Assembly: GCA_040755755.1 (NCBI GenBank)
Contig: JBFLZW010000042.1
Coordinates: forward strand, 21,550 to 85,549
Source of the DNA: a bacterium
GTDB lineage: Bacteria > SZUA-182 > DTGQ01
Reading direction: 5' to 3'
Length of the DNA stretch: 64,000 nt
The notes under the pieces are model-generated. The model was not told the origin of the DNA, made no database searches, and was given only the letters and a program-made list of their open reading frames with translations. Both the position numbers and the translations under genes were made by a program. Positions within the stretch are counted from its first letter, which is position 1. Each line of letters opens with the position of its first letter. This document shows positions 15,033 through 33,514 of this stretch, piece after piece.

Positions 15033-16478
15033 CTATTGCGGTGGGGCGGGAGGATAATCCGTCAGGTTCCTGCGATTGAGGCCCTTGCGTTTTTGATCAT
15101 GTTCCTGGAAGTACCTTTTGAGTTGGTACTTCTCGATTTTATCATAAAGAGTGCGCCGGCTGATACCCATGAATTTAGCTGCATGCGTACAATTGAAGTT
15201 TACCATCTTGAGGACCTGAAGGATAAACTCTCTTTCCGCTTTTTCAATGGCCTCGCTTAAGGTATTTTGCTTATCGGGCAGACTGGTATTGTCGATGAAG
15301 CTGTCGGTCAGGGATCGATGGTCAAGAATCAGATGCGGGATGTCGATTGGACCATCTCCGGAGATAAGAAGAGCCCGCTCGATCGTATTCTCCAACTCCC
15401 GGACATTCCCCGGCCAGTTATACTGGCTGAGATAAAGCAGGGCCTGGCGGGTAATGCTTTTCGTCTGTTTTTGGTTGATCGTACTATGTTTCTCAATAAA
15501 GTGAGCCGCCAGGATGGGGATATCCTCCTTTCTCTCCCGAAGTGATGGAATACGCATGGGAATAACAGCGAGCCGATAGAAGAGGTCTTCGCGGAAATCT
15601 CCCTTTTTTACCATCTCGCGCAAGTTCTTGTTGGTGGCCGTGATAATCCGGACATCGACCTTAATGGTTTTATCGCTGCCCAGAGGGCGTATTTCCCGTG
15701 TCTGAATCACCCGCAGAAGCTTTGATTGGACAGACAGGGGGATATCGCCTACTTCATCAAGAAAAATCGTTCCTCCCGAAGCTGTAACAAAGAGGCCGCG
15801 CCGGTCCTTATCGGCACCGGTAAAAGCACCCTTGACGTGTCCGAACAATTGACTTTCGAGAAATATTTCTGATAAGTTCGTGCAATCAACAGCTTCAAAG
15901 GGGAAATTCTTCCGCGAGCTGTGATAATGGATGGCCCGGGCGAGCAGATCTTTCCCGGTTCCGCTCTCTCCCTCGATCAACACGGTTGCCATACTGTCAG
16001 CAACCTGTTCGACCAGCCTGAATACATTCCACATGCATTTGCTTTTGGCGATAATATTGTTGAAGGAATATTTGTTTTGGACCTCTTTTTCCAATCGATT
16101 CAGCCTTTGAAGGAGCTCGCCGTACTCCAGGGCTCTCTTTACCGCAGTGCGGATTGTATCCAATTCGAACGGTTTTTGAATGAAATCGTAGGCCCCTTTC
16201 TGTACAGCCTCAACAGCCAGCGGGATAGTCCCATGTCCGGTAATGAAAATAGTCGGTAAATTGGGATGCGACTTGTGGAACCATTCCATTAAGGCAATAC
16301 CGTCGATCTCGGGCAGGGCCAGATCGACGATCAGAAGATCGAATTCCATATCTTTTCCAATGGCAATGGCCTCCCGGCTGGTTAGGGAGGTGGTAACCTG
16401 ATACTCTCCGCTCGTAAGGACGCTCTCTAGGGTAGTGAGGTAATTCGGTTCATCGTCCACGATGAGGATATTTTTCAT
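15033..16478 (-). CDS. NtrC-family sigma-54-dependent response regulator
   Basis: 481 residues. The receiver domain has KNILIVDDEPNYLTTLES and the phospho-acceptor in LLIVDLALPEIDG. The AAA+ domain has Walker A GESGTGKDLLARAIH, the sigma-54 contact loop FGHVKGAFTGADK and Walker B GGTIFLDEVGDIP. The C-terminal Fis-type helix-turn-helix is NCTHAAKFMGISRRTLYDKI. It should activate sigma-54 promoters. It lies just downstream of the PAS kinase, so they form a likely two-component pair, and the pair is divergent from the cytochrome cluster. I saw no convincing -24/-12 promoter upstream of the first cytochrome-cluster gene. Confidence 0.92.
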   Translation of the reverse strand: MKNILIVDDEPNYLTTLESVLTSGEYQVTTSLTSREAIAIGKDMEFDLLIVDLALPEIDGIALMEWFHKSHPNLPTIFITGHGTIPLAVEAVQKGAYDFIQKPFELDTIRTAVKRALEYGELLQRLNRLEKEVQNKYSFNNIIAKSKCMWNVFRLVEQVADSMATVLIEGESGTGKDLLARAIHYHSSRKNFPFEAVDCTNLSEIFLESQLFGHVKGAFTGADKDRRGLFVTASGGTIFLDEVGDIPLSVQSKLLRVIQTREIRPLGSDKTIKVDVRIITATNKNLREMVKKGDFREDLFYRLAVIPMRIPSLRERKEDIPILAAHFIEKHSTINQKQTKSITRQALLYLSQYNWPGNVRELENTIERALLISGDGPIDIPHLILDHRSLTDSFIDNTSLPDKQNTLSEAIEKAEREFILQVLKMVNFNCTHAAKFMGISRRTLYDKIEKYQLKRYFQEHDQKRKGLNRRNLTDYPPAPPQ

Positions 16479-16611
16479 AACCGCTCCTTCTCAAAAGGTA
16501 ATTCAATAAATTACCAAAGATGCAAGGCATACTTTCTGGATGCATATCACTATCGATGCCCCTGATCACGAAACGGATCAACCCATCGTCAACAACGAGA
16601 ATCTTCTTCAT
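16450..16611 (-). pseudogene. Remnant of a response regulator start between kinase and NtrC gene
   Basis: A 53-codon frame starts with MKKILVVDDGLIRFVIRG and then loses all resemblance to a receiver. The first nine residues are a textbook receiver N-terminus. Its ATG overlaps the 3' end of the histidine kinase gene in another frame, the way a co-translated partner regulator normally begins. No phospho-acceptor region follows. The simplest reading is a deleted receiver gene of which only the 5' end remains. A chance overlap is possible because the stretch is short. Confidence 0.4.
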
Positions 16612-18367
16612 AATTGTTCTCCTGTGGCAGAGGTACCTCCAGTATTACCCGGGTACCCTGTCCCACTTCGCTTTCTACATATATCGTCCCTTCGTTGGCT
16701 TCAATAATTCTTTTAGTTATGGGCAATCCCAAACCTGTTCCCTTTTCACCTTTTCCATCTTTTCCACCTTTTTTGGTGGTGAAAAACGGCTTAAAGATAA
16801 GGGGAAAATCCTCAGGGAGTATACCTCCACCGGTGTCCTCAATCACGAGCCGGGTCAACCCATCGGGATGCTGGGGGTGGTGAGTTTGAATCGATACCGA
16901 TATGCGCAACTCTCCTCCCTTCGGCATAGCCTGAATGGCATTTAAAAAGATATTCAGTAAAACCTGCTTAAACTGATGGGGATCAATATCGATCCTTGAC
17001 TCAGGATCCACATTCAATCTCACTTGAATCCCTTGTTTATCTATCTGGAATTCAAGGAACTTGAAGCAGCTGCCAATGATCTCTTCCATCTTTTCACGGT
17101 TAAGAAGGCTTTTGCGGGGAATATCAGGACGGGCAAAGTCCATAAAATTCCTGATGATTTTCCGGCATCGAATACATTCCTCCTCGCAGATTTTCAGCGC
17201 CTTATAATTCATGTTGGTTTCAGTAATCTTCTCCAGCAATACCTGGGTGTTTATGAGAATAATACCGATAGGATTATTGATTTCATGGGCTACACAGGTA
17301 GCGAGCTCCCCTATCGTGGCCAATAGCTCGGCATGGCGTATTTGCTCCTCCAGGTTCCGCATTTCAGTGATATCCCGGAGAACCTCGATGACCTGTTCCA
17401 CCTGACCCTCTTTATTCTTGATAGGTGCGTAAATAATATCCATGAAAATATTCTCATTATTCCCCTTGGGGAAGGAATTTTCTTTCCTGTTCTTTTTCCC
17501 GGTAGTAAAGACGTTTTCGACCGTCTCCCTCCGGAAGGGAGATGCAATTTCCGAATACGGCCTGCCGATCAGGTCCTCCGGGGCATATCCTAGGGTGGTG
17601 GCCTGCTTGCGGTTGATGGCTGCAATCTTTTTGCCATGATCGACGACAATTATCCCGTCATCCATACCATCGAAGATGGATTCGAGCTTGCGCTTGTTTT
17701 CCAGATTGGTTTCCTCCAGTTTTTTTCGCTCGTTGATATTGGTGATGCTGCCGATAATACTGGCTTTCCCCTCCATCTCCCAGTTGCGGCAACTGATAAC
17801 TACATGGTTTTGAGCCCCCTCCGGCGTGTGCAGGGTGGTTTCCCTGGTCGCGATTTCCCCGCAAGAGCAGCATAACTTGCAGGTGCCTTCACCCATGCAG
17901 ATGAGATCAAGGCACCGTCGTCCGATAACCTCATTGTGAGTCAGGCCGAGAAGATTCAGGGCGAAGGTGTTGATATCGGCAATCTCCAGTCCCTCGGTCA
18001 CCCGGAACATCCCGGCAGGAACAATTTCGAAAAGAGTCCGGTATTTTTTTTCATTTTTCACCAGTTGTTCTGTTTTGCTTTCAATCAGCTTCTCCAGGTT
18101 TTTGTTGTAGTCTGTAATGATTTTCTCCCGGTCCCGGTATATCGTGCCGGTGGCGCCAAGAGTAGGGTAGAGGGCGGCGGCAGCGATTCCGAAGGCAAAA
18201 TCAATTATCATCTGGAACTGGGGGATACTATGTATGGTTCCCAACAGCAGAAGCACCGTACACCACAGAAGTGCCCATCGGGCTGAAAGGTTGGATCTGG
18301 GATCGTAGGTAAAATTATCTTTGAAGGATTTTATGAATTCCTTCATCAGCTCTTTGTTTTTGGACAT
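16589..18367 (-). CDS. PAS-domain sensor histidine kinase with a cysteine-rich PAS segment
   Basis: 592 residues. Two hydrophobic segments lie at about residues 31-48 and 52-75, then a coiled coil. PAS domain 1 (FEIVPAGMFRVTEGLEIADI) contains a cluster of six cysteines at 152, 157, 163, 166, 167 and 169. PAS domain 2 follows (IFDGMDDGIIVVDHGKKIAA), then HisKA with LATCVAHEINNPIGIILINT and HATPase_c with LLNIFLNAIQAMPKGGE, DTGGGILPED and KGTGLGLPITKRIIEA. The cysteine cluster could bind a metal, an iron-sulphur cluster or act as a thiol switch; this is inference. The gene is divergent from the cytochrome cluster and upstream of the NtrC-type regulator, so it is a good candidate redox sensor for that cluster. 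Confidence 0.88.
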   Translation of the reverse strand: MSKNKELMKEFIKSFKDNFTYDPRSNLSARWALLWCTVLLLLGTIHSIPQFQMIIDFAFGIAAAALYPTLGATGTIYRDREKIITDYNKNLEKLIESKTEQLVKNEKKYRTLFEIVPAGMFRVTEGLEIADINTFALNLLGLTHNEVIGRRCLDLICMGEGTCKLCCSCGEIATRETTLHTPEGAQNHVVISCRNWEMEGKASIIGSITNINERKKLEETNLENKRKLESIFDGMDDGIIVVDHGKKIAAINRKQATTLGYAPEDLIGRPYSEIASPFRRETVENVFTTGKKNRKENSFPKGNNENIFMDIIYAPIKNKEGQVEQVIEVLRDITEMRNLEEQIRHAELLATIGELATCVAHEINNPIGIILINTQVLLEKITETNMNYKALKICEEECIRCRKIIRNFMDFARPDIPRKSLLNREKMEEIIGSCFKFLEFQIDKQGIQVRLNVDPESRIDIDPHQFKQVLLNIFLNAIQAMPKGGELRISVSIQTHHPQHPDGLTRLVIEDTGGGILPEDFPLIFKPFFTTKKGGKDGKGEKGTGLGLPITKRIIEANEGTIYVESEVGQGTRVILEVPLPQENNYEEDSRC

Positions 18368-18515: not shown

Positions 18516-18612
18516 TTTCATTATAACCCAACTACTCCTGGAAAAAACGGTAAGGTGAATTGTAAAGCTGTTGAGCTGTACGAACAGGAGCATAGGCCAT
18601 AAGGATGGAGCA

Positions 18613-19575
18613 ATGAGGAAAGAGAGCATTTTGACTGTGGGGAGTATTTTGTGCCTGTGGCTGCTTCTTTTTTGTCTTCCCGCAGCGGAAGCGGCGGTTG
18701 CTGAATATCTGAAAGAGAGTATCAGTCCTGTCCTGGTCATCAATCAATTCAATAATCAACTCCCCCTGGGACAGCCTGTTGATGTATATGTTGACGGGCC
18801 GGGCAACCTTTATGTGGTTGACTCCTCAAGCCGGGCTGTTCTTATTTTCGATAACCACTATCAACCCGTGAGCAGGCTGGATATGGGGAACGGTTTGCAG
18901 TCACCGAATGCGGTAGCGGTTGGTCAGAAGGGGCATATCTATGTGGCCGATGCGGAGCAGGGGATCCTGGTTTTTAACTCGATCGGCAAGATAATCAAAA
19001 AGATAGACCTGAATAAACTGGCCGAAGGCAGGGTTCGCTGTGCACAGGATATGGTTATCGATCACCAGACGGATTGCCTTTATCTGGCTACCGGAACCGA
19101 GCAGGGAGTGCTGGTTATAGACCCCGAGGGCAAGCTCAGGGCAGCTATTACTCCAAAGGAATCGCGCAAGGAGGGGATGCCTCCGACGCCGGTAGCCGTA
19201 AACCGGGTCACTCTGGATTCCCGCGGAAGAATTTATTGTGTCAGTGAAGAGATGGGCAGAATCTATGTTTATGAGAATCCGGAGACTTTCCTGTTTCAGT
19301 TCGGACAGAAGGGAGGATCTTTCGGCAAATTAAGCCGTCCGGTGGGAATTGCGGCTGACTGCGCACAGGAATTAATCTTTGTCATAGACTATATGCGGCA
19401 TACTTTATCCATGTATAATTTAAACGGCGTGTTCCTCCAGGAATATGGAGGCCAGGGGGAGAAAGTCGGCTGGTTCAGTCATCCCGACCATATCTGCCTG
19501 GACAGGGAAAATCGGCTGATCGTGGCAGACTCGTTCAATCACCGTCTGCAGGTCCTGGCCATTCATTCACCATAG
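18613..19575 (+). CDS. Secreted NHL-repeat beta-propeller protein
   Basis: 320 residues from the ATG at 18613, which starts a clear signal peptide (RKESILTVGSILCLWLLLF, cleavage near PAAEA-AVA). The frame is open further upstream, but only this start gives a signal sequence. The rest is a series of ~45-residue NHL-type blades (QPVDVYVDGPGNLYVVDSSS, SPNAVAVGQKGHIYVADAEQ, HPDHICLDRENRLIVADSFN), i.e. a six-bladed propeller without enzyme motifs. It is the first gene of the plus-strand cluster, 140 bases upstream of the OmcS-like cytochrome. NHL propellers have been noted near Geobacter nanowire cytochrome genes (from memory), so a role in cytochrome export or docking is plausible but inferred. 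Confidence 0.82.
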   Translation: MRKESILTVGSILCLWLLLFCLPAAEAAVAEYLKESISPVLVINQFNNQLPLGQPVDVYVDGPGNLYVVDSSSRAVLIFDNHYQPVSRLDMGNGLQSPNAVAVGQKGHIYVADAEQGILVFNSIGKIIKKIDLNKLAEGRVRCAQDMVIDHQTDCLYLATGTEQGVLVIDPEGKLRAAITPKESRKEGMPPTPVAVNRVTLDSRGRIYCVSEEMGRIYVYENPETFLFQFGQKGGSFGKLSRPVGIAADCAQELIFVIDYMRHTLSMYNLNGVFLQEYGGQGEKVGWFSHPDHICLDRENRLIVADSFNHRLQVLAIHSP

Positions 19576-19715: not shown

Positions 19716-21002
19716 TTGGAAAGGGGGCGCTTAAACGTGAAAAGAAGAGAATTTTTCCGGAATCTCTGTGTAGTGGCACTTATCAGCGGGTTGGTTTTTA
19801 TCCAGAGTCTATCCAGTGAGGCAGGGGTAAAGGGGCCCTGTTCCGAGTGTCATACCATGCACAACAGCCAGGATGGAGCGGTGGTTAATGAGGTTAACGG
19901 CCAGGAATTGGAGGCTCAGTCGTTTTTGATCAAGGGAGCCAATCTGAATCTGGGAAATCCCTGCCTTGGCTGCCATAAAAGAAATGCGAGCGGCCAATAT
20001 TTTAAGGATCCGGCGAAGGAGAATCCGGAGACGAAGGAAAATACCGATGCCCCTCAGGTCAATGTCAATCTCGAATCGACCGATGGTAAAATGTCGGCTG
20101 CGGGGACCTATTACTATGTAGCGAAAGACAAAACCGAGAGGGATGGGAAATCCTGCCGCAAGGGGCATAATGTCGCGGGCATGGAGGACGATAACAGCGG
20201 CAATGAAGATGAGCTGCTGGGAGTCATTCCTCCCGGCGGAACGGAAGATTGCATCAGGAGCGATGTCAGTAATCAGTTGACCTGCGCGGGAGCGTCCGGC
20301 TGTCACGGGAACAGGAATATATCGGATCCGCTGGCTTCGATCAAGGGCGGGCATCACAGTCCGGCCACTAATAGCTATGAGGGCCGGTATCGGGATGGAA
20401 ACACGGTAGCCAGCAGTTATCGCATGCTCTATCATGTCAGGGGAAGAGTTGCCAGTAACTGGGAATATGGGGACCATGCTGATAAATTCCTCGAGCAGAT
20501 CGATCTGAGTGGCGAAGATGTAAATATTTATCAGGGAACTGATAAGGGGGTCCAGGGTGATAAAAGAGACCCCGGCCCGGACCGCTCGATTAACGGCTTT
20601 TGTGGTGAGTGTCATGGATGTGCCAGCGATACGACCGGAAATGGTTTTCACAGCCTTGAAGGTTTGAAGGGATCCAGCCAAAGCGAAATGAGCTCTCCCT
20701 GGAAACGGCATCCGACCGATATCGTCATGAAGCAAAATACTGCCTATTGGAACTATCCGGGTGTCGATGGCAAGGACTATTCACAGGAAGTGCCGGTTGG
20801 TTTTGCCAAGATCACTAAGACCGGCTCGGTGAATGAACTCCAGAAATCAGAACGGGTTGTCCTCTGCGTATCCTGTCATAGGGCACACGGATCACAGTAT
20901 GATGATTCTCTGCGATGGGACTACAATGAGATGCGAACCACTTCAACCAAGGGGGATGGCTGTTTCCGGTGTCATACGGATAAGTATAACAGGCAGGATT
21001 AA
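19716..21002 (+). CDS. Hexahaem c-type cytochrome resembling the filament-forming OmcS of Geobacter
   Basis: 428 residues. A TTG start at 19716 has AGGAG six bases upstream; a GTG at 19737 is an alternative. The signal peptide is about residues 8-35. Haem motifs are CSECH, CLGCH, CAGASGCH (CX5CH), CGECH, CVSCH and CFRCH. Several details match what I recall of OmcS (432 residues, six haems): the first motif followed by TMHNSxxGAV, the haem-free KGHN segment in the second quarter that supplies a distal histidine, the fifth motif followed by RAHGS, and a final motif a few residues from the C-terminus. OmcS polymerises into extracellular cytochrome filaments. The gene sits between two NHL-propeller genes. 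Filament formation here is inference; the multihaem call is certain. Confidence 0.85.
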   Translation: MERGRLNVKRREFFRNLCVVALISGLVFIQSLSSEAGVKGPCSECHTMHNSQDGAVVNEVNGQELEAQSFLIKGANLNLGNPCLGCHKRNASGQYFKDPAKENPETKENTDAPQVNVNLESTDGKMSAAGTYYYVAKDKTERDGKSCRKGHNVAGMEDDNSGNEDELLGVIPPGGTEDCIRSDVSNQLTCAGASGCHGNRNISDPLASIKGGHHSPATNSYEGRYRDGNTVASSYRMLYHVRGRVASNWEYGDHADKFLEQIDLSGEDVNIYQGTDKGVQGDKRDPGPDRSINGFCGECHGCASDTTGNGFHSLEGLKGSSQSEMSSPWKRHPTDIVMKQNTAYWNYPGVDGKDYSQEVPVGFAKITKTGSVNELQKSERVVLCVSCHRAHGSQYDDSLRWDYNEMRTTSTKGDGCFRCHTDKYNRQD

Positions 21003-21066: not shown

Positions 21067-22071
21067 ATGGATGAGAAATTTGTACCTAAGAAGGCAGTAT
21101 GTAAGAGTATTATTTACATTCTTATGTGCTGTGTGGGATTTCCCTCCTTTGCTGTCGCCGGGGGGGGGGCAGGTATCAGGACGGAGTGGCTTTTCGATGT
21201 GCGGGGAATCCAGAAAGGTCACTCCTTCAATCATCCTCTGGGAATATTCCTGGATAACTCTCAAAAGAAGATTTATATTGCAGATACAGATAACCGGGAG
21301 GTGGCCGTATTCTCCCTTTCGGGAGAACCATTAGGCATACTCCGGACTGAGCGTCCGCTTTCCCGCCCGCTGGGGGTGTTGAGCGATGCGGAGGGGAAAA
21401 TTTATATCAGCTATCGGGATAAAGAATGCCTGGAGATTTTCGATGCCGGGGGAAAATTTCTCTCCTCCCTTCCCTCCCCTGAATTGCTGAAGGATCATGG
21501 ATTTTCAGCAGGAAAGTTCGTGCTGGGTCCGGGAGGCAGGATATATGCAGTCAATCGAAAAACCGGCGAAATCTGGGTGTTTGAGCGGAATGGATCTTTA
21601 GCCTTCCGCTTTGGCGGCAGAGGATCGGGGAAAGGCAAATTTCAGCTTATCACCGACATCTTCTTTCGGGAAGGAAAGATTTACCTGAGCGATTCTCAGG
21701 GGATTCCCGTGCAGGTATTCAGTCTGGAAGGCAAGTATCTCGGCTCCTTCGGAAGGCATGGTCAGCACGAGGAAGACTTTTCTTTTCCCCAGAGCATTTG
21801 TGTAGACCGACATCAGAGGATATGGGTAGTGGATGCTTTCCGCCACCGGATCAAGGTATATGATCAGGAGGGTAACTATTTATCCGGCTTTGGCACTTAT
21901 GGAACGGAAGCGGGGAAATTTTGTTTTCCCGTCGATCTTGACTTTGATGATCAGGACAGGATATATATATTAGAAAAAAGCAGCAATAGATTTCAGGTAT
22001 TTCAGATTGAGGGAAAACAGGGATTAGAGACAGGGCAAGGAGAGAAGACGAAACATGTAGATAAAAGATAA
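21067..22071 (+). CDS. Secreted NHL-repeat beta-propeller protein
   Basis: 334 residues from the ATG at 21067, which gives a signal peptide (KKAVCKSIIYILMCCVGF, cleavage near SFAVA-GGG). The long upstream extension of the frame overlaps the cytochrome gene and is not coding. About six NHL blades follow (HPLGIFLDNSQKKIYIADTD, RPLGVLSDAEGKIYISYRDK, PQSICVDRHQRIWVVDAFRH, FPVDLDFDDQDRIYILEKSS). No haem motif. It lies 64 bases after the OmcS-like gene and ~110 bases before the giant cytochrome, so the OmcS-like gene is bracketed by two propellers. Confidence 0.82.
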   Translation: MDEKFVPKKAVCKSIIYILMCCVGFPSFAVAGGGAGIRTEWLFDVRGIQKGHSFNHPLGIFLDNSQKKIYIADTDNREVAVFSLSGEPLGILRTERPLSRPLGVLSDAEGKIYISYRDKECLEIFDAGGKFLSSLPSPELLKDHGFSAGKFVLGPGGRIYAVNRKTGEIWVFERNGSLAFRFGGRGSGKGKFQLITDIFFREGKIYLSDSQGIPVQVFSLEGKYLGSFGRHGQHEEDFSFPQSICVDRHQRIWVVDAFRHRIKVYDQEGNYLSGFGTYGTEAGKFCFPVDLDFDDQDRIYILEKSSNRFQVFQIEGKQGLETGQGEKTKHVDKR

Positions 22072-22182
22072 GAGAAAACATGGCGTGCTGTTGGAAGAAG
22101 TAGTAGGTGATGGATAATTAGCAAGTTAGGTAAGAGTGCTCCCCCTAAATTAATGGCATATATTGCTCTTTTGGAATTAGAC

Positions 22183-25100
22183 GTGAAGAAAGCGGTCTCT
22201 ATCATTGTATTCTGCGGTATTTGTATAATTTTCCCTCTTTCTCTTGCTCGCGCAGGGAACTACCATATCAAAGGCCAGAACCTGAACTGTTATGACTGTC
22301 ATACTCTCCATTTCAGTCAGGATGGCGCTACTCCACAGGTTCCTGACGGAGCGCGGCCCTGGGGAGAAGGACCGCAGGATTACCTTTTAAAAAATACCAC
22401 TTCCGAAATGTGTCTCATGTGCCACGATGGTTATAACCTCGAGGCACCGAATGTCATGTATTCCACCTCCCGCGATTACCAAAGCTCAGCCGGTTATCTC
22501 GGTGAAGAGAAAAACGCCGACAGCGGAGTCTTCGGCCACACCCTGAACAGTCCCAACCCTCCCCCCGGGTATCAGGGAACATGGAACAGGACCCTGTCCT
22601 GTACTTCCTGTCACGATCCTCATGGCAATTCATATTATCGGAATCTTCGGCCAAAACCTTTAGCTGATTCTGCAAATTCTCCAGTGACGTATTTTATCGG
22701 CACGTCGGTGAGTGGAAATGAAGACAAGGGTATTCAGATCGCGGTTGATAGTGCCGATGCTTCCTCCTCACCCTATGATTTGACAAAAATCATTTACCGG
22801 CAGGAAGGAGAGGCAGGAGAGGATACGGTGGGGCTTTCCTTCTGGTGTGCCGGATGCCATCCGGCTTTCAATCAGCGGGGTGATGTCCAGGGGACAAGAA
22901 CACTCCATCCGACCTATGGTATCACCATGTCCCAGGCCAAGCCCTCCATCAGCCAGTGGTGGTCAGCTACTGCCTCCGGGCCCCCGACCCGGCCTCCGAC
23001 CGTAACGTCATCATCAGATACGGACCGGGGATCGGACCGCCCCTTTTGCGGGAGCTGTCATAAGGCTCATGGATCAACCCACCGCTACGGGCTGCTGTGG
23101 GAAAACCCTGCCAGTCCCGATCGAGAGGGGGGGCAGTATATGCGGGATACCTGTCAGGCCTGCCACCATATCGGGAACGGGCACTATGAATCCAGTCCGC
23201 ACGCTGATCCAAATTTCGGGGTCTATCGGGTACCGGAATTCGGCAGGGGTGAGTGCGAGCAATGCCACCGGCAGCATGGCACCGCGAACAACCCTCAGGG
23301 CAATGCTCATAACCTGTTCGCCGAGAGCAATAAATCTTTTTGCCTGACTCCCGGATGTCACTGGGAAGTCCCGGCATCCTATCCGCTTTCGGAAGAAAAA
23401 CTGCCGCAGGGGGCCAAAGCCCGGATCAGCCTGACGGTAGATGCCGGCAATGATCGGGCCTTTCTCGGCTACTTTGAGCTGAATTCTGAAATCAACAATA
23501 CAGCGGTACGGCTCGGCGGCCTCCAATACCGGGGTAGGTGGCCGGGAGCTTTGGCCTACAATAACGAGCAATATTCTCCTCACGGCAGGGAAAACGGGGC
23601 CATGCCCAACGAGGGTTCCTGCATGAACTGCCACAGCCCTCATGGTACCGAGAGCCGGTTTGATATGCTCCAGTTGCCCTATGAAGGAACCTCAGGATCA
23701 GGCATTGCAGGGGCGGACAATTATGAGCTGTGCCTGAGCTGCCATAGTGAGAATGGGCCGAGCGGCATGAGGCCGGAAACGAAAAGAATCGCTGACTACT
23801 ACAGCCAGGATGACCTGTACTCAGGCCATAAGATCAAAAGTGACGGCGGTTTCGCCAGACCAGGGGATAAACTGGCCTGCTCAAACTGCCATAACCCGCA
23901 TGGTTCAATGGGCAATAACCAAAGCGGACCAAACCTCCATCTTCTTTCCGACGAGCGGCCGGGCTGGCGGGAGCTCGACACCCTGAATGATCCGAATTCT
24001 TCCCGCAGGTTCTGCTTTGGCTGCCATGTTCCCTCGAATAAGCCTGAAGTCAAGTCCGTCGTGGAAGGGATTACCATGAAGCCGATTCCCGACTTCGCTG
24101 AGCACCGGGATGGAGAGGGATCGACAGAGAGTTGTCACAGTTGTCATGGCAGCAGCTACGATGCCCCTGATTCGGAAAACGTTCATCATCTCTCACCAGG
24201 CAGTTGTGATAAATGCCATGCGGATCAGGGAGCCTGGCAGGCCAAAAAGTACAGCGGCCCCCATGCCTATCATACGGATAAATACGCCTTTGCCTGTGAG
24301 GTTTGCCATGCACGAATGAACCATACAGCCGGCAAGGCCATTCATGGCAATGGCAAAGCGCCCGGATCGAATTGCCAATATGCGCAAGTTTGCTTCCACG
24401 ACGGGTCTGATTCAATCGAGTGGAAAAATCAGATTCTCCACCAAAAAACCTACCGATACCGATCGTTGTATCACAATCCATATCTCGACAATGCCGGGAT
24501 TACGCCAGGTTATGATGCCTCAACCTATGACCTGCCCGATACCTGCAAGGAGGATCCCATTGATCCCAATCGGGTTTTCTGGACCGATCAGAGCACCTTC
24601 AGCGGGCATAATTCGTGCAGTACTGTCTGGTGCCACAGTAATGCCAATCCGCTCAGTCTGCCGAACCATCCGCGGGAGAACAGCTATCAGGCTAACCCGT
24701 CTTTCGCCCTGACCTGGGACGATCACAACGCAAATCGGTGCAATAATTGTCATGGCTTTATTGATCTCGATCAGCCAGCTGACACCTGGCAGCTTTCCTC
24801 GTACCATCGAAAGCATATCGTAGTCACTACCCCGAATAAAGACACAACCGGCATGGCCAAGATCCTGTGCACCAAGTGTCATGCCGGAACCTGCACGGAT
24901 AACGAAAACACCATCCGGGAAGATATCGGGTATGCGAACCACGTCAATGGGAAAAAAGACATAATTTTTGCCGATCCCAATGGAAAATATGCCGCTGATC
25001 GCACCTGTAGTGTAAATTGCCACAGCCGTGACGGGAGGCTCCTTTCCGTTTCCTGGGAAGAGCAGAATCCCGAATCGGTCTGCGGCACCTGTCACGATGT

Positions 25101-28100
25101 TTTCGGTCCCGGCAGGACGATTTCCAAGGACGGGCATGCTGTTCACCTGATTTCCGACCGGGGACCCGGTCCCCATTCACCGGAGCAGTGCAATGACTGT
25201 CATACCTCGCACGACGATCCGGCCCATTGCAACGGGGTGCCAGACTTCAAGGATGGCCAGACCCTGGCTCAGACCTCGGTGTGCGATAAGTGCCATAGCC
25301 CTGGAGGCGACTATGATGGAGTGAACGATCCTTCCATCGGGGCCAAAGCCAATTGGAAATCCGGCGGTGTATATGTCCAGGCTCCTGACGGGAAACTGGA
25401 GCTTAGGGGGGGCAGGGAGAAATGGTGTGTCGGCTGCCATGATAAGGAGCCTGCCGCCAGCCGCAGCGACGGTTCCGGCGTGAGTGCACCGAACGTGGCC
25501 GGAGATGAAACCGCTCTTACTCAATACGGGAGAGGGTATGGCTATTTCGTAACCGGTCATGGTCTGGAAGAAGGCAAGTCCTATCCGGGCTCGGAGGAAA
25601 GAGGTGCCGGGGCTTCCTGCACGGATTGTCATGATGCCCGCCTTGGCCATATCGACCATGCTCACCGGACATATTCAGCCAGCAGGAACAATTACCAGGC
25701 CGGCTACCGCCTTAAAGCCTCTGCCCTGGCGAATGATCCGGCCCGGCCGATGGATATCCCCAGAACAGCGAGCACCGGCCCGAACAATAATCCTCAGCAA
25801 TACTGGCAGGACTTTGCTCTCTGCTTCCAGTGCCACGACCGCTTTGCACTTTTGGGGAATGGAGTGAGCTCTGATCAAAGATACCTGAAAGATCCTCTGC
25901 AAACGAATTTTTATAACAGCAGCTATCTCTATGAAAACAGCGATAAGAGTGTCAATCTGCACCTTTCCCACTTGTCCGGAAGAGGCGGCGGGGGCAACAA
26001 TCCCGATTGGACATCCAGTTGGAACAGCACGGGGGATTCTGCCATGAGCTGTCCTGCCTGCCATAATGTCCACGGCTCCCCAACTCCCCGGATGATGCGT
26101 CATGGTGAGCTTATCAGCACTCCGGGTACTTCGGATAAGGTTCCGGGCCTGAATTTCCGGTATCAGCCATCGGGTTCGACTCTGCCCGGAAGCACGGGAG
26201 GGGAGATTTTCAGCCAGTTCAGCGCGGGAAGAGGTACAATTTCACAGAACAGGATTTGTGAGACCTGCCATCCAGCCTATGTGAAATATACCCGGACACC
26301 GTATATCAACCCTGACAATATCAATCCTCAAATCGAGAGTGTTGTGGCCTGGAATGGTCCCACCGGCGGCAGGGGAATCGACGATGGAGATCAATTGGTT
26401 ATTACCTTTACCACGGCCACCAATGGCCCGCAAGTGATCAAGCTGCCGGAAGATGTGAAATTCGGCATCAAGATTTATGGAGACAGTAACTGCACCCTGG
26501 AAAAAGCATGGAGCACCCCCGCCAATATTGAATGGTCGTCAGCAGGCGGCCGTTCCAATGATACTTTGCGCCTGATCCTGCGGAAGGAGGGTACGGACAT
26601 TGCCATTGGCGATTATCTGAGAGTGCTTCCGGGAAATCTCGAGGGAATTGTCGGCGGCATTAGCCGTCAGATTGACTCGTCGAGGGAGATGACGGGGACA
26701 TTCGATTGTGCCCTGGTCAGGGTCTGTGCAGAAAATCAATCTCAGAGTGAGGAGCCGGGAATTCAGGAGGGAGATCAGGTAACTGTTTACTTTTCAGGGT
26801 CCATCGATGTCGGCAGTGGAGGCACTTCGCTGACTGCGGCCAATATTGATCAGGCCCTGCGGCTGAGCAGCGGCCATACCTGGGGGCAGGTAAAGGAGAT
26901 CAGGTGGAATGCTCCTGCCAATGATACTCTGACCATAATCCTTGGCAATGAACAGCCTGCGGCCACAATTGCAGTTGGAGACAGTATCACCCTGGGGGAT
27001 ATCATCCGCGATCAATCTGCAAATATCTTAAGCGGCTCAGCCATACTTGAAGGATCGTTTGATTCTTATCCCCTGCTCAGCCCGCTGGCTGTATACAGCT
27101 CTAATATTCCGGGTCCGCCCTGGGGTAATACTATGAAATCGATCGATGGAGACCCCAATACCCTCTGGTTCCTTGGCCCTTCGGCGGAAGGAAAGATCAG
27201 TTACGATCTGGGAACAATGTACCGAGTTTCCAGGGTTTGGATTTCCAGCGGTGGCAGTGGAGGAAATGCTTCGGCAAAAGTCTGGGTTACCGCCGGTCCG
27301 GAGTATGACGAAACAGCTCCGACTCTTGACTCCTGGCAGATACCGGTAACTCAAGGGTGGCATTCCAGTCCCCAATTCGATGCCGTAGGCCGGTATTTAC
27401 GGATCGAGGCCAGGAAAATCGGGAACGGTCCTCTCGGTGAGTTGTTTCATGAAGTGGCATTCCAGGGAACGACCGCGCTTCCCCATGTCAATCCCCGAAT
27501 CCTTGGTGTAGAGGCTCGGAACAATGCCTCAGGCGGTGCGGGAGTTGATGACGGGGATCAGGTGGTTATTACCTTCAATGTATCCACCAACGGCCCTGAG
27601 GTGATCAGGGGGCCGGCTGACGTGGAATCGGTCCTGAGTGTGTATGGAGATGCCAACCACAAGGTTGAAACCCGCAAGAGCTGGGGTACCCCCGGCAGTA
27701 TCGAGTGGTCCGCTGCGGGCGGGCAGGCCAATGATACCCTCACCATAATCCTGAAAAAGGAAGGGGCTACCCTCGCTGCCGGAGATCATGTTGAGGTATC
27801 CTCCCTCAAGCTGAAGGCACGGGCAGGAGGGTTTGAACTTCCGATTATCTCATCCCGGGTGATTACCGGAACCTTCGACTGCTCTCTGGCCAGGGCCGTT
27901 GCCGGAAATCAGTCACAGAGCCCGGAGCCGGGAATCCAGGAGGGCGATCAGGTGATCATCTCCTTTGCCGGGAAGACCTTTGGCAATGCGATAACCGCAG
28001 AGACGATCAACACGGCCTTGCAGGTAAATAACGGTCATTCCTGGGGTCAGGTCAAGGCCATCGAATGGAACGCCCCTGCCAATGATACCCTGAAGATAAC

Positions 28101-29838
28101 CTTTGGCTCCGGCGCTCCGGTTCCCACAATCGCTGTTGGCGATACTATTACCCTGGGCGATATTATCTGCGATCAATCCCAGCACCCGATCATAGGGTCG
28201 GTTACTCTCACAGGATCATTTGATCCGCCGGTGGCCACCTGGCGGACACCAGAGGCCATCCACAGCTTCAGCCCGACCTGGGGCGGGAATACCAATGCCG
28301 CAAGATCGATCGACAGCGATCCGAACACCATGTGGACTGTTCTGGACGGGACAGCGCGTATTACCTATGATCTGAAAACGCAGCATCAGGTCTCCAGCAT
28401 CCGGTTCTTCAGCACTAGTGGTGGGGTAAAAGTTTCGGTCAAGACCTGGGTCACCGATGAGCCGGTTTATGATCCCAACAATCCAACAACCGGCCCCTTC
28501 GAGATATCAGGAGTTTCAGGGTGGGCTGCAAGTCCGTATCAATTTTATTCCAAAGGCCGCTATCTCACCCTGGAGGTCAAAAAGCTGACTCCCGGACCTC
28601 TCAGCAGTTACATCGCCGAAGTGCAATACCAGGATGGTGAGATTCCGTTACCTGATATCAGTCCGCAGATTCTCAAGGCTGAAGCCTTGAACAGCATCTC
28701 CGGCGGCACGGGAGTTGATGACGGGGACCAGATGGTCATTACCTTCAATGTATCCACCAACGGCCCTGAGGTGATCAGGGGGCCGGCTGACGTGGAATCG
28801 GTCCTGAGTGTGTATGGAGATGCCAACCACAAGGTTGAAACCCGCAAGAGCTGGGGTACCCCCGGCAGTATCGAGTGGTCCGCTGCGGGCGGGCAGGCCA
28901 ATGATACCCTCACCATAATCCTGAAAAAGGAAGGGGCTACCCTCGCTGCCGGAGATCATGTTGAGGTATCCTCCCTCAAGCTGAAGGCACGGGCAGGAGG
29001 GTTTGAACTTCCGATTATCTCATCCCGGGTGATTACCGGAACCTTCGACTGCTCTCTGGCCAGGGCCGTTGCCGGAAATCAGTCACAGAGCCCGGAGCCG
29101 GGAATCCAGGAGGGCGATCAGGTGATCATCTCCTTTGCCGGGAAGACCTTTGGCAATGCGATAACCGCAGAGACGATCAACACGGCCTTGCAGGTAAATA
29201 ACGGTCATTCCTGGGGTCAGGTCAAGGCCATCGAATGGAACGCCCCTGCCAATGATACCCTGAAGATAACCTTTGGCTCCGGCGCTCCGGTTCCCACAAT
29301 CGCTGTTGGCGATACTATTACCCTGGGCGATATTATCTGCGATCAATCCCAGCACCCGATCATAGGGTCGGTTACTCTCACAGGATCATTTGATCCGCCG
29401 GTGGCCACCTGGCGGACACCAGAGGCCATCCACAGCTTCAGCCCGACCTGGGGCGGGAATACCAATGCCGCAAGATCAATCGACAGCGATCCGAATACCC
29501 CCTGGTCCGTCCTGGACGGGACAGCACGAATTACCTATGATCTTGAACCGGAATATCAGACACAATATCAGGTTTCCCGCATTCGGCTCTTCAGCCGTGA
29601 CAGCAGGGGGAAAGCTTCGGTAAAGGTCTGGGTTACCCCTGACCCGGTATACGATCCGGAAGCTCCAACATATGGCCCTTATGAGATATCACAGGTTGCG
29701 GGGTGGGCCATAAGCCCTGAGTTTGACGCCAGAGGCCGGTATCTCACCCTGGATGTCAGGAAGCTGCTTCCCGGGCCTCTTGGCAACTGGATTGGCGAAA
29801 TACAATTTTTCGGTATGGCTCCTCCTGCTTCTCCCTGA
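22183..29838 (+). CDS. Giant 27-haem cytochrome c with duplicated haem-free C-terminal domains
   Basis: 2551 residues from a GTG at 22183 that begins the signal peptide KKAVSIIVFCGICIIFPLSL (an ATG at 22153 is in frame but adds an acidic leader). Residues ~35-1370 carry 27 haem motifs: 24 CXXCH, two CX4CH (CLTPGCH, CSTVWCH) and one CX3CH (CSVNCH). Many are followed by PH or AH, as in outer-surface multihaem proteins. From about residue 1380 the protein is haem-free. It has three copies of a ~390-residue unit, each made of two Ig-like beta domains (VDDGDQxVITF, GIQEGDQV) and a discoidin-like domain (SIDxDPNTxW). Copies 2 and 3 are almost identical in DNA. Probably secreted or cell-surface, with the C-terminal half as a binding or anchoring region. 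Confidence 0.85.
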   Translation: MKKAVSIIVFCGICIIFPLSLARAGNYHIKGQNLNCYDCHTLHFSQDGATPQVPDGARPWGEGPQDYLLKNTTSEMCLMCHDGYNLEAPNVMYSTSRDYQSSAGYLGEEKNADSGVFGHTLNSPNPPPGYQGTWNRTLSCTSCHDPHGNSYYRNLRPKPLADSANSPVTYFIGTSVSGNEDKGIQIAVDSADASSSPYDLTKIIYRQEGEAGEDTVGLSFWCAGCHPAFNQRGDVQGTRTLHPTYGITMSQAKPSISQWWSATASGPPTRPPTVTSSSDTDRGSDRPFCGSCHKAHGSTHRYGLLWENPASPDREGGQYMRDTCQACHHIGNGHYESSPHADPNFGVYRVPEFGRGECEQCHRQHGTANNPQGNAHNLFAESNKSFCLTPGCHWEVPASYPLSEEKLPQGAKARISLTVDAGNDRAFLGYFELNSEINNTAVRLGGLQYRGRWPGALAYNNEQYSPHGRENGAMPNEGSCMNCHSPHGTESRFDMLQLPYEGTSGSGIAGADNYELCLSCHSENGPSGMRPETKRIADYYSQDDLYSGHKIKSDGGFARPGDKLACSNCHNPHGSMGNNQSGPNLHLLSDERPGWRELDTLNDPNSSRRFCFGCHVPSNKPEVKSVVEGITMKPIPDFAEHRDGEGSTESCHSCHGSSYDAPDSENVHHLSPGSCDKCHADQGAWQAKKYSGPHAYHTDKYAFACEVCHARMNHTAGKAIHGNGKAPGSNCQYAQVCFHDGSDSIEWKNQILHQKTYRYRSLYHNPYLDNAGITPGYDASTYDLPDTCKEDPIDPNRVFWTDQSTFSGHNSCSTVWCHSNANPLSLPNHPRENSYQANPSFALTWDDHNANRCNNCHGFIDLDQPADTWQLSSYHRKHIVVTTPNKDTTGMAKILCTKCHAGTCTDNENTIREDIGYANHVNGKKDIIFADPNGKYAADRTCSVNCHSRDGRLLSVSWEEQNPESVCGTCHDVFGPGRTISKDGHAVHLISDRGPGPHSPEQCNDCHTSHDDPAHCNGVPDFKDGQTLAQTSVCDKCHSPGGDYDGVNDPSIGAKANWKSGGVYVQAPDGKLELRGGREKWCVGCHDKEPAASRSDGSGVSAPNVAGDETALTQYGRGYGYFVTGHGLEEGKSYPGSEERGAGASCTDCHDARLGHIDHAHRTYSASRNNYQAGYRLKASALANDPARPMDIPRTASTGPNNNPQQYWQDFALCFQCHDRFALLGNGVSSDQRYLKDPLQTNFYNSSYLYENSDKSVNLHLSHLSGRGGGGNNPDWTSSWNSTGDSAMSCPACHNVHGSPTPRMMRHGELISTPGTSDKVPGLNFRYQPSGSTLPGSTGGEIFSQFSAGRGTISQNRICETCHPAYVKYTRTPYINPDNINPQIESVVAWNGPTGGRGIDDGDQLVITFTTATNGPQVIKLPEDVKFGIKIYGDSNCTLEKAWSTPANIEWSSAGGRSNDTLRLILRKEGTDIAIGDYLRVLPGNLEGIVGGISRQIDSSREMTGTFDCALVRVCAENQSQSEEPGIQEGDQVTVYFSGSIDVGSGGTSLTAANIDQALRLSSGHTWGQVKEIRWNAPANDTLTIILGNEQPAATIAVGDSITLGDIIRDQSANILSGSAILEGSFDSYPLLSPLAVYSSNIPGPPWGNTMKSIDGDPNTLWFLGPSAEGKISYDLGTMYRVSRVWISSGGSGGNASAKVWVTAGPEYDETAPTLDSWQIPVTQGWHSSPQFDAVGRYLRIEARKIGNGPLGELFHEVAFQGTTALPHVNPRILGVEARNNASGGAGVDDGDQVVITFNVSTNGPEVIRGPADVESVLSVYGDANHKVETRKSWGTPGSIEWSAAGGQANDTLTIILKKEGATLAAGDHVEVSSLKLKARAGGFELPIISSRVITGTFDCSLARAVAGNQSQSPEPGIQEGDQVIISFAGKTFGNAITAETINTALQVNNGHSWGQVKAIEWNAPANDTLKITFGSGAPVPTIAVGDTITLGDIICDQSQHPIIGSVTLTGSFDPPVATWRTPEAIHSFSPTWGGNTNAARSIDSDPNTMWTVLDGTARITYDLKTQHQVSSIRFFSTSGGVKVSVKTWVTDEPVYDPNNPTTGPFEISGVSGWAASPYQFYSKGRYLTLEVKKLTPGPLSSYIAEVQYQDGEIPLPDISPQILKAEALNSISGGTGVDDGDQMVITFNVSTNGPEVIRGPADVESVLSVYGDANHKVETRKSWGTPGSIEWSAAGGQANDTLTIILKKEGATLAAGDHVEVSSLKLKARAGGFELPIISSRVITGTFDCSLARAVAGNQSQSPEPGIQEGDQVIISFAGKTFGNAITAETINTALQVNNGHSWGQVKAIEWNAPANDTLKITFGSGAPVPTIAVGDTITLGDIICDQSQHPIIGSVTLTGSFDPPVATWRTPEAIHSFSPTWGGNTNAARSIDSDPNTPWSVLDGTARITYDLEPEYQTQYQVSRIRLFSRDSRGKASVKVWVTPDPVYDPEAPTYGPYEISQVAGWAISPEFDARGRYLTLDVRKLLPGPLGNWIGEIQFFGMAPPASP
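27571..28307 (+). repeat. Direct repeat copy 1 (737 bp, no mismatch seen) inside the giant cytochrome gene
   Basis: The stretch matches 28741-29477 base for base at a constant offset of 1170, as far as I can read by eye. Just before it (27541-27570) and just after it the copies differ at several bases. It encodes the two Ig-like beta domains and the first part of the discoidin-like domain. Such identity in coding DNA points to recent duplication or gene conversion. Confidence 0.85.
28741..29477 (+). repeat. Direct repeat copy 2 (737 bp) inside the giant cytochrome gene
   Basis: Partner of 27571-28307. Identity ends at 29478, where A replaces G, and the following codons differ (PNTPWSV in place of PNTMWTV). 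The two copies keep the reading frame because the 1170-base offset is a multiple of three. Confidence 0.85.
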
Positions 29839-29977
29839 AAAAAACAAAAGACAGAGGGAAGTCCAGAGAAAAGCAGAGGAGTGGGAGTGAGTGAAAACCG
29901 GTATAAGGTTAAAGAGAAAAATATCAGATTATGGCAGGTTATTCTCTCCGGTTAACGGGCGAGCAGGTGGAATGGAT

Positions 29978-32900
29978 ATGAGCAGGAATCTTCTGGTAAC
30001 TATCATAAGTATGGTGATCGTGAGCGGAATAGTATTGGCAGATCAGGGAATTGGTCTTGCCAAAATCATGGTGGATTATCAAAAGGGCGGTGTGGAGCTT
30101 TCCTGGACTGAGCCTACTCAGCGAATCACCGAGGAGCGGCTGTTGTCTTCAGAAATCGCCGGCTATAATATCTTCCGGAGTCTGATCGGTGAGAATGACT
30201 ATCGGAAAATCAACCAGGAATTGATCAGGCAGACCAGATATCTTGATCGGCACATCGAGTGGGGGAAGTGCTATTCCTATGCCCTGACCACAGTTGATTA
30301 CCGGGGACTCGAAAGTCCCCGTTCCCCAATTGTGCAGGCAGTTGCACCGCTTGCTCCTCCGGCGAAGGTCGAGGCATTCGGCCAGAAGCGAAGCGTCAGG
30401 CTGAGCTGGGAGAAGAGTAATAATCCACAGATCCGGGGCTATAATATCTACCGGTCGGAGATATCCGGGCAGAATTACCAGGTGATCGCCTCTGTGCTCG
30501 ATACAGATGATGAATACCTCGATCAGAAGGTAGAGGTTGGGAAAAACTATTACTATCTGCTGAGTACAGTCGATCTTTCCTGGCAGGAGAGTGCTTTTTC
30601 CCCGGAGGTTGGAGCTACACCCCTGGTGATCAGCCAGGAAGAGCTGTCCACTCTGGAAAAGATCGATGGTTTCAGGGCTGACATCGATCATGAAGGGGAG
30701 AGCCTGGCGGTCATTCTCCACTGGGAGCCGGTCACTCTGGAAAATCTGGCTGGTTATAGCGTTTACCGCCGGTTAAACACGGACATGGGAAAGGGGCCGG
30801 CCTCATATCAGCGGCTCAATAAAGAGCTTATCCGGGTGACGAATTTCCGTGACGAAGAGGTCGTCCCTCAGCAAAGCTATTTCTACCTTATCGCCGCTGT
30901 GGATAAAGATAACAATGAGGCCCGGTTTCCCAGGGAAATCTCAATAACCGTAGCTGAGCTTGCCATCAATTCTCTGACTGACGATTCCTCCGGGCGTCCA
31001 TTGAAAGGGGGAAAGCTGCTGACCATTACCCTGACCGGCACGCCGGGAAAGAAAGCCTCTGCCTCTCTTGAGGGGCTGGCTCAGGATATCCCGTTGCAGG
31101 AAACCGATCAGGAAGGTGTTTACTATGGCCAGTATAGTATACCGGAAGGTATCAGCAAGGCAAATATCGCCTTGACCGGCACCATCGAGGACGATCGCGG
31201 GGAGAAAATCGGCTTTGTGTCTTCCGGCACGGTTACGATCGATAACACTCCCCCGGCCGGCATTCTTGCAGCGACGGCGGAATTGGTCAGCGATGCTGTT
31301 CACCTGAGCTGGGAGCTTCCTGATGGAAGTGACGACGTTGTGGCAGTAAGGGTTTTTCGCTCCCTGGCGGACAATGAGGGGAATGATAGCTTTGGAAAGG
31401 CGGAGGATTGTGCCCGGAAGCGGCCCGGAGAGGCGGTCAGCGGAGAAATCAGCCCCCGCATCCGGTCGTTTGATGACCGCTCGTTTCGCCCTCATCAGGG
31501 ATATTATTATTACCTGATCACCTATGATCAGGCAGGGAACGAATCCTGGTCGCAAGATTGTCTTGCGGTTATCACCCCGGTAGACTCCACTCCCCCGAAA
31601 ATACATTCGGTCGAAGAGCTCAGCGCACCCGGCACCAAACGACTTGGGGATGTTATTCGGATCCAGATGCTTGGCGAACCCCGGGCAGAGGGCCGATTTT
31701 CCATCGGTCCACGGATCCGGCAGCCGTTTCAGGAAGTCAGTCCGGGAAAATATCAGGGAGAGTATACTGTCCAGGCGGGTGATGATCTGGAAAATGAACC
31801 GGTCATGGCAGAGTTGACCGATGCTTCGGAAAACCGGAGCACGATGACCGGAAACTTCAAAATTTCGATCGATACCAGAACAGAAGCTGGCAAACCGCCT
31901 CAAATCGCGGTCGTAGAGCATAATGCTTTTTCCGTGGCAGGCATGGATCCTCTGGTGGCTGGAGACTCGTTCCGTATTTCGGTCCAGGGTGATCCAGGCT
32001 GCACTGCCTATGTGGACATAGGAGCACTGGTTACCCGGTCCGGTCCGGAGGCTGATGTTGAGCTCAGTTGGGAACACGATAACAGCTCATCCGCACGAGG
32101 GGAAGGTTTTGTAACTTCGTACCGGATTTACAGCCAACCGGAATTTTCATCTTCACTCATCTTTCTGCCGGGCTCGCAGCCATCCTCAGCCCGGCTGGTA
32201 AAAGAGCTGCCTCCGGGGGCCACCTGCTGCCGGATCGAGGATTATCATGGAGGATATCTATCCGTTACCGCCAGGAAAAATACGGGTGATGAGCAGATAA
32301 TTCTTACCCCGAAAATGCATATTCCCTTAACGGAGGTACAGCCCGGCCTGTACGAAGGCACATACAAAATCCAGCCGGGAGACCGTGTCCGGGAGGGAAA
32401 ACTGACTGCCTATCTTGTCAATCGGCAGGGAGAAGTTTCTCTTCCCCATGAAGCCGAAGACGCGGTTAGCATCGATACCTCGGTGGCCGTAACCGTAACT
32501 CCACGGGAAAAGTGCCTGAAGGCTGACGGCAAATCCAAAACCGAGGTTCGGATTGAAGTCAGCAATGCCAGACAGGTTGGTGTTGCAGATCGGGAAATTG
32601 TCATCGAATTATTCACTACTGACGAATACACCGGAATTGCCGGTGTCGGCCGGTTTGATGAGGATAAATACGGGTATGTGGATAATTCCTACCAACTGGT
32701 CACCGATCCTGGAGGGATGGCCGATATCCCCTATGTTTCGGGGCTGGCAGCCAAGACCGTGATCATTCGGGCCAAAGATGTGGCTACCGGCTGTGTGGGC
32801 CTGAGCTATATCACTTCCTACATCGAAGGTCTGATCAATATTCAGCTTATCGATCCGCCTGCCCGTCAGCGCCTGCGCGCTCTTCAGAGCGGGCCAAGTC

Positions 32901-33514
32901 TGACCGTATGGGCGGATAATGAATGGCTGACAGCGGATGGCGGGCACAGCAGGACGATCGTTCATGCCAGGGTTTTGGATGCGGAGGGAAATCCTCTGGG
33001 AGGGCACCGGCTGAGCTTCGCCATTACTTCGGGAGAGGGCCGGATCGAGGAGATACAGCCCATCACCACCGGCTCCGGTGAAGCCCTGGCCAGATATTTT
33101 GCCGGTAAGCATGTCGGCACGGTGGAAATCACGGCGGTTGATACCGTCACCGGAATGAGCAGGAAGGTTTATATTATCCTGAAAAGTGATGCACCGGCCA
33201 AAATAGTGTTCGAGGGAACTCCGTTGTCAATTTACGCCGATGGGGCCAGCACCTCAGACCTGACCATTCAGGTCGCGGATATGAATGACAATCCCAGCAG
33301 GGGTATCCCATTGGAAGTTGATATTATCCAGGGAAAGGGGAGATTGATCGCTCTGGATAAAGAACTGGTTACCGATTTCCAGGGCGAATGCCGGTTAAAA
33401 TATCTGGCCGGAACCAAACCGGAAACTGTAACTATTCGGGCAAGGGCTCTATCGGCAGTCCCTGACCCGCAAACCATGCAAAAAGCCAGGATTGCAGAAA
33501 AAGGGATGAATTGA
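29978..33514 (+). CDS. Large surface protein with fibronectin type III and invasin-like Ig domains
   Basis: 1178 residues from the ATG at 29978 (AGGTGG seven bases upstream), which begins a signal peptide SRNLLVTIISMVIVSGIVLA; an ATG two codons earlier and a GTG at 29891 are in frame. The N-terminal ~330 residues hold three Fn3-like domains, with blades ending in GYNIFRS, GYNIYRS and GYSVYRR. A further Fn3-like unit (DAVHLSWELPDGSDDVVAVR) and several Ig-like domains follow, and the C-terminal ~330 residues resemble invasin/Big_1 domains (PREKCLKADGKSKTEVRI, LSIYADGASTSDLTIQV). There are no haem motifs. It lies between the giant cytochrome and the beta-barrel gene, so a cell-surface scaffold for electron-transfer proteins is possible (inference). 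Confidence 0.75.
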   Translation: MSRNLLVTIISMVIVSGIVLADQGIGLAKIMVDYQKGGVELSWTEPTQRITEERLLSSEIAGYNIFRSLIGENDYRKINQELIRQTRYLDRHIEWGKCYSYALTTVDYRGLESPRSPIVQAVAPLAPPAKVEAFGQKRSVRLSWEKSNNPQIRGYNIYRSEISGQNYQVIASVLDTDDEYLDQKVEVGKNYYYLLSTVDLSWQESAFSPEVGATPLVISQEELSTLEKIDGFRADIDHEGESLAVILHWEPVTLENLAGYSVYRRLNTDMGKGPASYQRLNKELIRVTNFRDEEVVPQQSYFYLIAAVDKDNNEARFPREISITVAELAINSLTDDSSGRPLKGGKLLTITLTGTPGKKASASLEGLAQDIPLQETDQEGVYYGQYSIPEGISKANIALTGTIEDDRGEKIGFVSSGTVTIDNTPPAGILAATAELVSDAVHLSWELPDGSDDVVAVRVFRSLADNEGNDSFGKAEDCARKRPGEAVSGEISPRIRSFDDRSFRPHQGYYYYLITYDQAGNESWSQDCLAVITPVDSTPPKIHSVEELSAPGTKRLGDVIRIQMLGEPRAEGRFSIGPRIRQPFQEVSPGKYQGEYTVQAGDDLENEPVMAELTDASENRSTMTGNFKISIDTRTEAGKPPQIAVVEHNAFSVAGMDPLVAGDSFRISVQGDPGCTAYVDIGALVTRSGPEADVELSWEHDNSSSARGEGFVTSYRIYSQPEFSSSLIFLPGSQPSSARLVKELPPGATCCRIEDYHGGYLSVTARKNTGDEQIILTPKMHIPLTEVQPGLYEGTYKIQPGDRVREGKLTAYLVNRQGEVSLPHEAEDAVSIDTSVAVTVTPREKCLKADGKSKTEVRIEVSNARQVGVADREIVIELFTTDEYTGIAGVGRFDEDKYGYVDNSYQLVTDPGGMADIPYVSGLAAKTVIIRAKDVATGCVGLSYITSYIEGLINIQLIDPPARQRLRALQSGPSLTVWADNEWLTADGGHSRTIVHARVLDAEGNPLGGHRLSFAITSGEGRIEEIQPITTGSGEALARYFAGKHVGTVEITAVDTVTGMSRKVYIILKSDAPAKIVFEGTPLSIYADGASTSDLTIQVADMNDNPSRGIPLEVDIIQGKGRLIALDKELVTDFQGECRLKYLAGTKPETVTIRARALSAVPDPQTMQKARIAEKGMN

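Follow-up and report, generated by a model that had tools for sequence, protein, structure and literature searches.

Can a hexahaem cytochrome that resembles OmcS of G. sulfurreducens be expected to build a wire outside the cell? The question is raised by a stretch of 64,000 nucleotides of bacterial DNA (GenBank assembly GCA_040755755.1, contig JBFLZW010000042.1), here termed the window. An initial annotation of this DNA had proposed that one of its gene products was a candidate subunit of an extracellular cytochrome nanowire. Its sequence makes this protein a secreted hexahaem member of the OmcS superfamily, encoded in the OmcS slot of a divergent assembly locus, and it is probably a filament subunit. 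Outside the cell the subunits would form a head-to-tail stack, the six haems of each making a continuous electron path.

A hexahaem cytochrome resembling OmcS

The gene begins with a TTG codon (19716) behind AGGAG, giving a protein of 428 residues; the alternative GTG at 19737 would give 421. There is a signal peptide. The mature chain, from about residue 37, is close in length to OmcS (407 residues), as had been claimed. Haem sites amount to five CXXCH and one conserved CX5CH. The other marks listed by the initial annotation (six haem sites, TMHNS, KGHN, RAHGS, a last motif towards the C-terminus) were all located:

19716..21002, plus strand: OmcS-superfamily hexahaem c-type cytochrome (open reading frame, motifs, OmcS similarity)
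19839..19862, plus strand: haem site 1, CSECH (residues 42-46), with TMH (TMHNS); H49 is at 19860-19862
19962..19976, plus strand: haem site 2, CLGCH (residues 83-87)
20166..20168, plus strand: H151 of the haem-free KGHN (149-152), aligned to clade-invariant OmcS His110; presumed distal ligand
20283..20306, plus strand: haem site 3, CAGASGCH (CX5CH, residues 190-197), of the same length as OmcS CSSCHDPH
20352..20357, plus strand: H213-H214 pair, invariant in and specific to the window clade; candidate replacement ligands
20601..20651, plus strand: haem site 4, CGECH (296-300), and H312, perhaps the displaced equivalent of OmcS His247
20709..20711, plus strand: H332 of RHP, aligned to OmcS His257
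20865..20888, plus strand: haem site 5, CVSCH (384-388), with RAH (RAHGS); H391 corresponds to OmcS His335
20961..20975, plus strand: haem site 6, CFRCH (residues 416-420), near the C-terminus

With OmcS (PDB 6EF8, 6NEF) the protein shares the number and order of its six haem sites, together with TMHNS and RHP, while RKGHN and RAHAS of OmcS read KGHN and RAHGS in the window. It differs in having a shorter C-terminal linker. TMH-type motifs begin other multihaem proteins too, which is a point against the filament reading.

Proteins rich in CXXCH inflate similarity, and the likeness could in principle be that of an unrelated multihaem cytochrome sharing these motifs only. As a control, OmcS was shuffled 500 times with its haem motifs fixed in place, a second set of shuffles fixing also the five residues that follow each motif. 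Real OmcS scored 43.3 bits versus 19.9 bits for the best shuffle of the first kind and 34.3 for the best of the second (0/500 as high in either set). The distant relative L027 did not, alone, score above shuffles; single relatives vary, and profiles were therefore used. Alignment of the window clade with the OmcS clade by hhalign gave an E-value of 4.3e-40, whereas other multihaem proteins of the window, aligned to the same OmcS clade, reached about 1e-8 at best. Searched against the PDB with phmmer, the single sequence retrieved OmcS (6EF8) as its sole match (E=2.5e-10, residues 39-413), and the family profile retrieved it as the sole strong match (2.4e-27, the next being at 1.3e-3). An alignment to OmcS that goes beyond CXXCH, on which the initial annotation had staked its proposal, was thus found. 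At the level of sequence, this full-length similarity beyond the haem motifs argues for membership of the OmcS superfamily and refutes a CXXCH-only resemblance. The shuffles and profile controls reject an unrelated cytochrome, as do the ligand histidines and the synteny; we consider it highly improbable.

A chance reading frame or resemblance is likewise rejected by the shuffles, by a same-genus orthologue with 74% identity and by a pN of 0.159 versus a pS of 0.666. The initial annotation had proposed alignment to OmcE as well as to OmcS as a check, and only the latter was borne out: OmcE gave no match in the PDB phmmer search (E up to 10) or in the profile search, nor did OmcZ in the single-sequence and profile searches of the PDB. 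Membership of either group, tetrahaem OmcE or octahaem OmcZ, is rejected, given the six sites and the lack of detectable similarity. OmcE, OmcZ and the archaeal ECN nanowires have in common with the window protein that they are multihaem cytochromes, and they polymerise, but they have no sequence match to it in the PDB searches. CwcA of Thermincola, another hexahaem cytochrome, has been modelled on OmcS with its haem 5 position open for a neighbour's histidine (PMC12203936); it is likened here by description only, without sequence comparison, and differs by its Gram-positive cell-wall setting. An AlphaFold2 model of the window cytochrome, built with eight sequences (the protein itself and seven relatives), had a pLDDT of 31, too low for folds to be compared, which counts against the filament reading.

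Sister clade, presumed haem ligands and the third site

Two supported groups stand apart in a phylogenetic tree, namely the window clade (21 rows, support 96/95) and the OmcS clade (5 rows, support 100/97), the deeper branching order being limited by long branches. The window cytochrome falls in this sister clade, outside the OmcS clade; it is therefore a member of the OmcS superfamily, and the status of strict OmcS orthologue is rejected. It is the single free-standing OmcS-family gene found in its genome. In the same family or order, one genome (G003) has one match, and two others (G002 and G004) have several genes each; further relatives are on contigs assigned to Thermodesulfobacteriota, Nitrospirota and others. 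Two members of the window clade (L027 and L032) adjoin pairs of 12-haem cytochromes. The genes of G002 and G004 form arrays, with four clustered in the former (L020) and six in the latter (L023), NHL genes being interleaved; these arrays include seven-motif variants.

One relative is encoded on a phage contig. The IMG/VR contig IMGVR_UViG_3300005099_000065 (79.7 kb) encodes an OmcS-family hexahaem cytochrome (L049:10001-11098, also L034:2932-4029) with a signal peptide and CX5CH, which the tree places inside the window clade. Its gene has an endolysin gene on one side and a RuvC-like resolvase gene on the other, and a DNA polymerase, a clamp loader, a UvsX-like protein and portal and head proteins are also encoded nearby. 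The contig had no INPHARED match, and other viral-contig scans returned it alone. Carriage of a nanowire-family gene by a phage would be remarkable.

Exactly twelve histidines are invariant in the OmcS clade (13, 16, 51, 110, 144, 147, 243, 247, 257, 332, 335 and 404, in mature numbering). Published work likewise counts twelve histidine ligands in OmcS, of which the subunit itself supplies eleven and its neighbour the remaining one, at haem 505 (PMC6584659); from this match we infer that the twelve invariant residues are the ligands. Ten of them are aligned in the window cytochrome, where His144 is lost and the counterpart of His247 is displaced, possibly to H312; distal-type histidines are shared with OmcS bar one. 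The added HH pair (213-214) has a frequency of 1.00 in the window clade versus 0.00 in the OmcS clade. With the ten aligned residues plus H213, H214 and H312, the protein has enough histidines for bis-His haems, the exact pairing being putative. Among the aligned positions is that of His16, which is H49 of the window cytochrome. It is invariant in all OmcS-clade and window-clade sequences and in the N-terminal domains of the giant cytochromes described below. Wang et al. reportedly found in 2019 that OmcS His16 is a ligand to haem 5 in the subunit that follows. H49 aligns to this residue, which we take to be the inter-subunit ligand, and the H49 of each subunit would, from its TMHNS motif, ligate haem 5 of the following one.

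The third haem site, CX5CH where OmcS has CXXCH, had been singled out as rare. Most hexahaem relatives within the window clade retain it, and a sequencing slip is rejected as its origin. No mention of CX5CH in cytochromes turned up in a literature search, though absence is not thereby proven. OmcS CSSCHDPHG and window CAGASGCHG have the same number of residues and can be aligned gap-free; the haem attachment site thus appears to have moved by three residues. The window clade suggests that CXXCHxxH can be converted to CX5CH at this site without a change in the number of ligand histidines. In another relative (L029:5956-7119) it is enlarged to CAGDANGQHGCH (CX9CH); spacing at the third site is thus variable. 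This non-canonical site, the loss of His144 and the sister-clade position count against the filament-subunit reading.

The OmcS slot and its companions

The cytochrome gene has the following neighbours:

15033..18367, minus strand: sigma-54 response regulator and PAS histidine kinase, divergent from the operon
18571..19575, plus strand: NHL1 propeller, conserved upstream partner
21067..22071, plus strand: NHL2 propeller, conserved downstream partner (frame listed from 20833; plausible ATG at 21067)
29891..33514, plus strand: Big_1/invasin/fn3 extracellular protein, joined to the giant's counterpart in G002
33511..35214, plus strand: probable outer-membrane beta-barrel (porin candidate), from sequence appearance and a weak profile match
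35229..37054, plus strand: GNA1162/CsgG-like lipoproteins LP1, LP2 and LP3
38513..39901, plus strand: PPIC-type peptidyl-prolyl isomerase (PPIase) with SurA-like N-domain, 17.5 kb downstream of the cytochrome
43295..45319, plus strand: 25-27-haem cytochrome, counterpart of the cassette's 26-haem protein
45027..46532, plus strand: 16-haem cytochrome of the cassette
46508..48061, plus strand: YncE-like beta-propeller

The NHL propellers on both sides and the prolyl isomerase, all announced by the initial annotation, are therefore present. The order runs NHL1, cytochrome, NHL2, giant cytochrome, Ig/invasin protein, beta-barrel and lipoproteins, then a 5-haem protein, a HAMP protein, the PPIase, three unknowns, the 25-27-haem and 16-haem cytochromes, the YncE propeller and more cytochromes. 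The succession NHL1-cytochrome-NHL2-giant is kept in G001 and G003.

Two genomes of another phylum (G145/G146, stretches L074/L075) have an OmcS-clade gene between the same two NHL genes, its products being 32-34% identical to G. sulfurreducens OmcS (E 7e-53 and 2e-55). There the order is 26-haem, 16-haem, NHL1, OmcS-clade gene, NHL2, then a hexahaem gene, a 9-haem gene, a barrel with NHL insert, lipoproteins and a 20-haem gene; no PPIase was seen in these stretches. The window cytochrome thus lies in the OmcS slot. The barrel-like outer-membrane proteins of these stretches (L074:4196-6703, L075:6385-8868) have an NHL propeller inserted within the chain, and the window's barrel has a weak profile match (E 4.8e-6) to such barrel and NHL proteins at the same locus position.

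A four-gene core of propeller, 16-haem, 26-haem and PPIase genes is known in ANME-partner bacteria and metal reducers (Skennerton 2017, PMC5539420), and the OmcS-like proteins of the oet cassette of ANME-partner sulfate reducers have been proposed to form filaments (Murali 2023, PMC10553843). For the osc operon of G. sulfurreducens (omcS, omcT, oscC) a role in folding and secreting the wire has been proposed (Shen 2025, as cited in PMC12977616 and PMC13194489). This OmcS-companion or DIET cassette set is complete in the window: NHL, PPIase, 26-haem, 16-haem and OmcS-family genes, homologous to genes in L030, L031, L050, L074 and L075. The propeller, PPIase, 16-haem and 26-haem genes thus accompany an OmcS-family gene as in the oet/DIET cassette and the osc operon. 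By contrast with these, the window fuses hexahaem and 9-haem cytochromes into a giant with discoidin-like domains, and adds the Ig/invasin protein. The NHL propellers, the PPIase and the 26- and 16-haem cytochromes would fold, export or feed the filament. Elsewhere (L052:700-3834), a 42-motif cytochrome looks like the 26-haem and 16-haem cassette proteins fused.

The histidine kinase and sigma-54 regulator recall the OmcS locus as well: GSU2506/2507 adjoin omcS in G. sulfurreducens (PMC10599522), and a pair homologous to that of the window adjoins an OmcS-family gene in G002. Upstream of NHL1 and of the cytochrome there is no sigma-54 (-24/-12) promoter at up to two mismatches, and matches within the window do not exceed chance expectation. 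A plasmid search gave no match, and no Rfam or tRNA feature was found within the window.

Taken with the similarity beyond motifs and the ligand histidines, this neighbourhood upholds the OmcS-type reading first put forward. A non-polymerising cytochrome of the family, comparable to OmcT, OmcJ or OscC, might yet serve as an extracellular or periplasmic carrier, alone or as an accessory of a filament. The window protein stands outside the OmcS clade. Moreover, three close OmcS relatives of G. sulfurreducens are not known wire formers, and a nanowire cannot be predicted from membership of the family (PMC12977616), which is thus no proof of polymerisation. It is mainly for this reason that our confidence in polymerisation stays only somewhat better than even. 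Against a mere carrier, no other free-standing family member was found in the genome, and the gene sits in the OmcS slot between the two NHL genes, which makes its product the natural main subunit. We judge the carrier rather unlikely, and keep to a filament subunit as the preferred reading.

The giant cytochrome next door

Downstream of NHL2 lies the giant, a further difference from OmcS:

22153..29838, plus strand: giant cytochrome, 2561 residues, with 24 CXXCH and 3 CX3-4CH (~27 haems) and F5/8 type C-like domains
22264..23187, plus strand: OmcS-family hexahaem module at its N-terminus (residues about 38-345)
23179..24027, plus strand: part homologous to the standalone 9-haem cytochrome of G145/G146 (residues 343-625)

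The initial annotation had overstated its size as ten-fold that of the hexahaem protein; it is 6-fold longer. Its N-terminal 300 or so residues hold six CXXCH in OmcS order, including CTSCHDPHG and CGSCHKAHGS. Single-sequence comparison of this domain with OmcS is indecisive, and the matter was settled by alignment profiles only: four orthologous N-domains gave 7e-22 versus the OmcS clade and 9e-29 versus the window clade, and OmcS was the sole significant match in the PDB (1.6e-7). With the standalone hexahaem proteins of L074/L075 this domain shares 31-32% identity (E 5e-33 and 3e-30); the 9-haem proteins encoded next to them are matched by residues 343-625 of the giant (hhalign 2.7e-19). 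The giant therefore corresponds to a fusion of two cassette cytochromes to which further haem sites and discoidin-like domains have been added. The setting beside giants had been announced as new; this is partly explained, the giant being a fusion of the hexahaem and 9-haem genes that elsewhere follow NHL-OmcS-NHL.

The N-terminal module has no counterpart of His247, which may leave one of its six haems without an intramodule distal histidine and in need of an outside ligand. Together with the adjacency of two genes that each have an OmcS-family module, both conserved in G001 and G003, this could mean that the window protein docks on the giant's module in a short mixed complex, no long filament being made. 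In G145/G146, however, the module is a separate protein beside a normal OmcS-clade gene, and such pairing is compatible with a filament; a hetero-partner of this kind is improbable. If the window cytochrome is a filament subunit, the adjacent giant, with its second OmcS-family module, would be a natural candidate for an end-piece that joins filament and cell surface.

We know of no anchor of any cytochrome nanowire identified so far. OmcS secretion and anchoring have been called speculative (PMC12307469); for the nucleation and anchoring of cytochrome wires, and their joining to outer-membrane conduits, the giant offers a testable end-piece candidate. Its N-terminal module, presenting the interface of a free subunit, would terminate or nucleate the filament, while its further haems and the discoidin/Ig partners would pass electrons to the outer membrane and hold the wire there. 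We advance this built-in end-piece tentatively, as a somewhat doubtful proposal. The arrangement itself is plain: after the gene for an OmcS-family protein, the probable subunit, comes one whose product joins a second OmcS-family module with more haems and with likely surface-binding domains.
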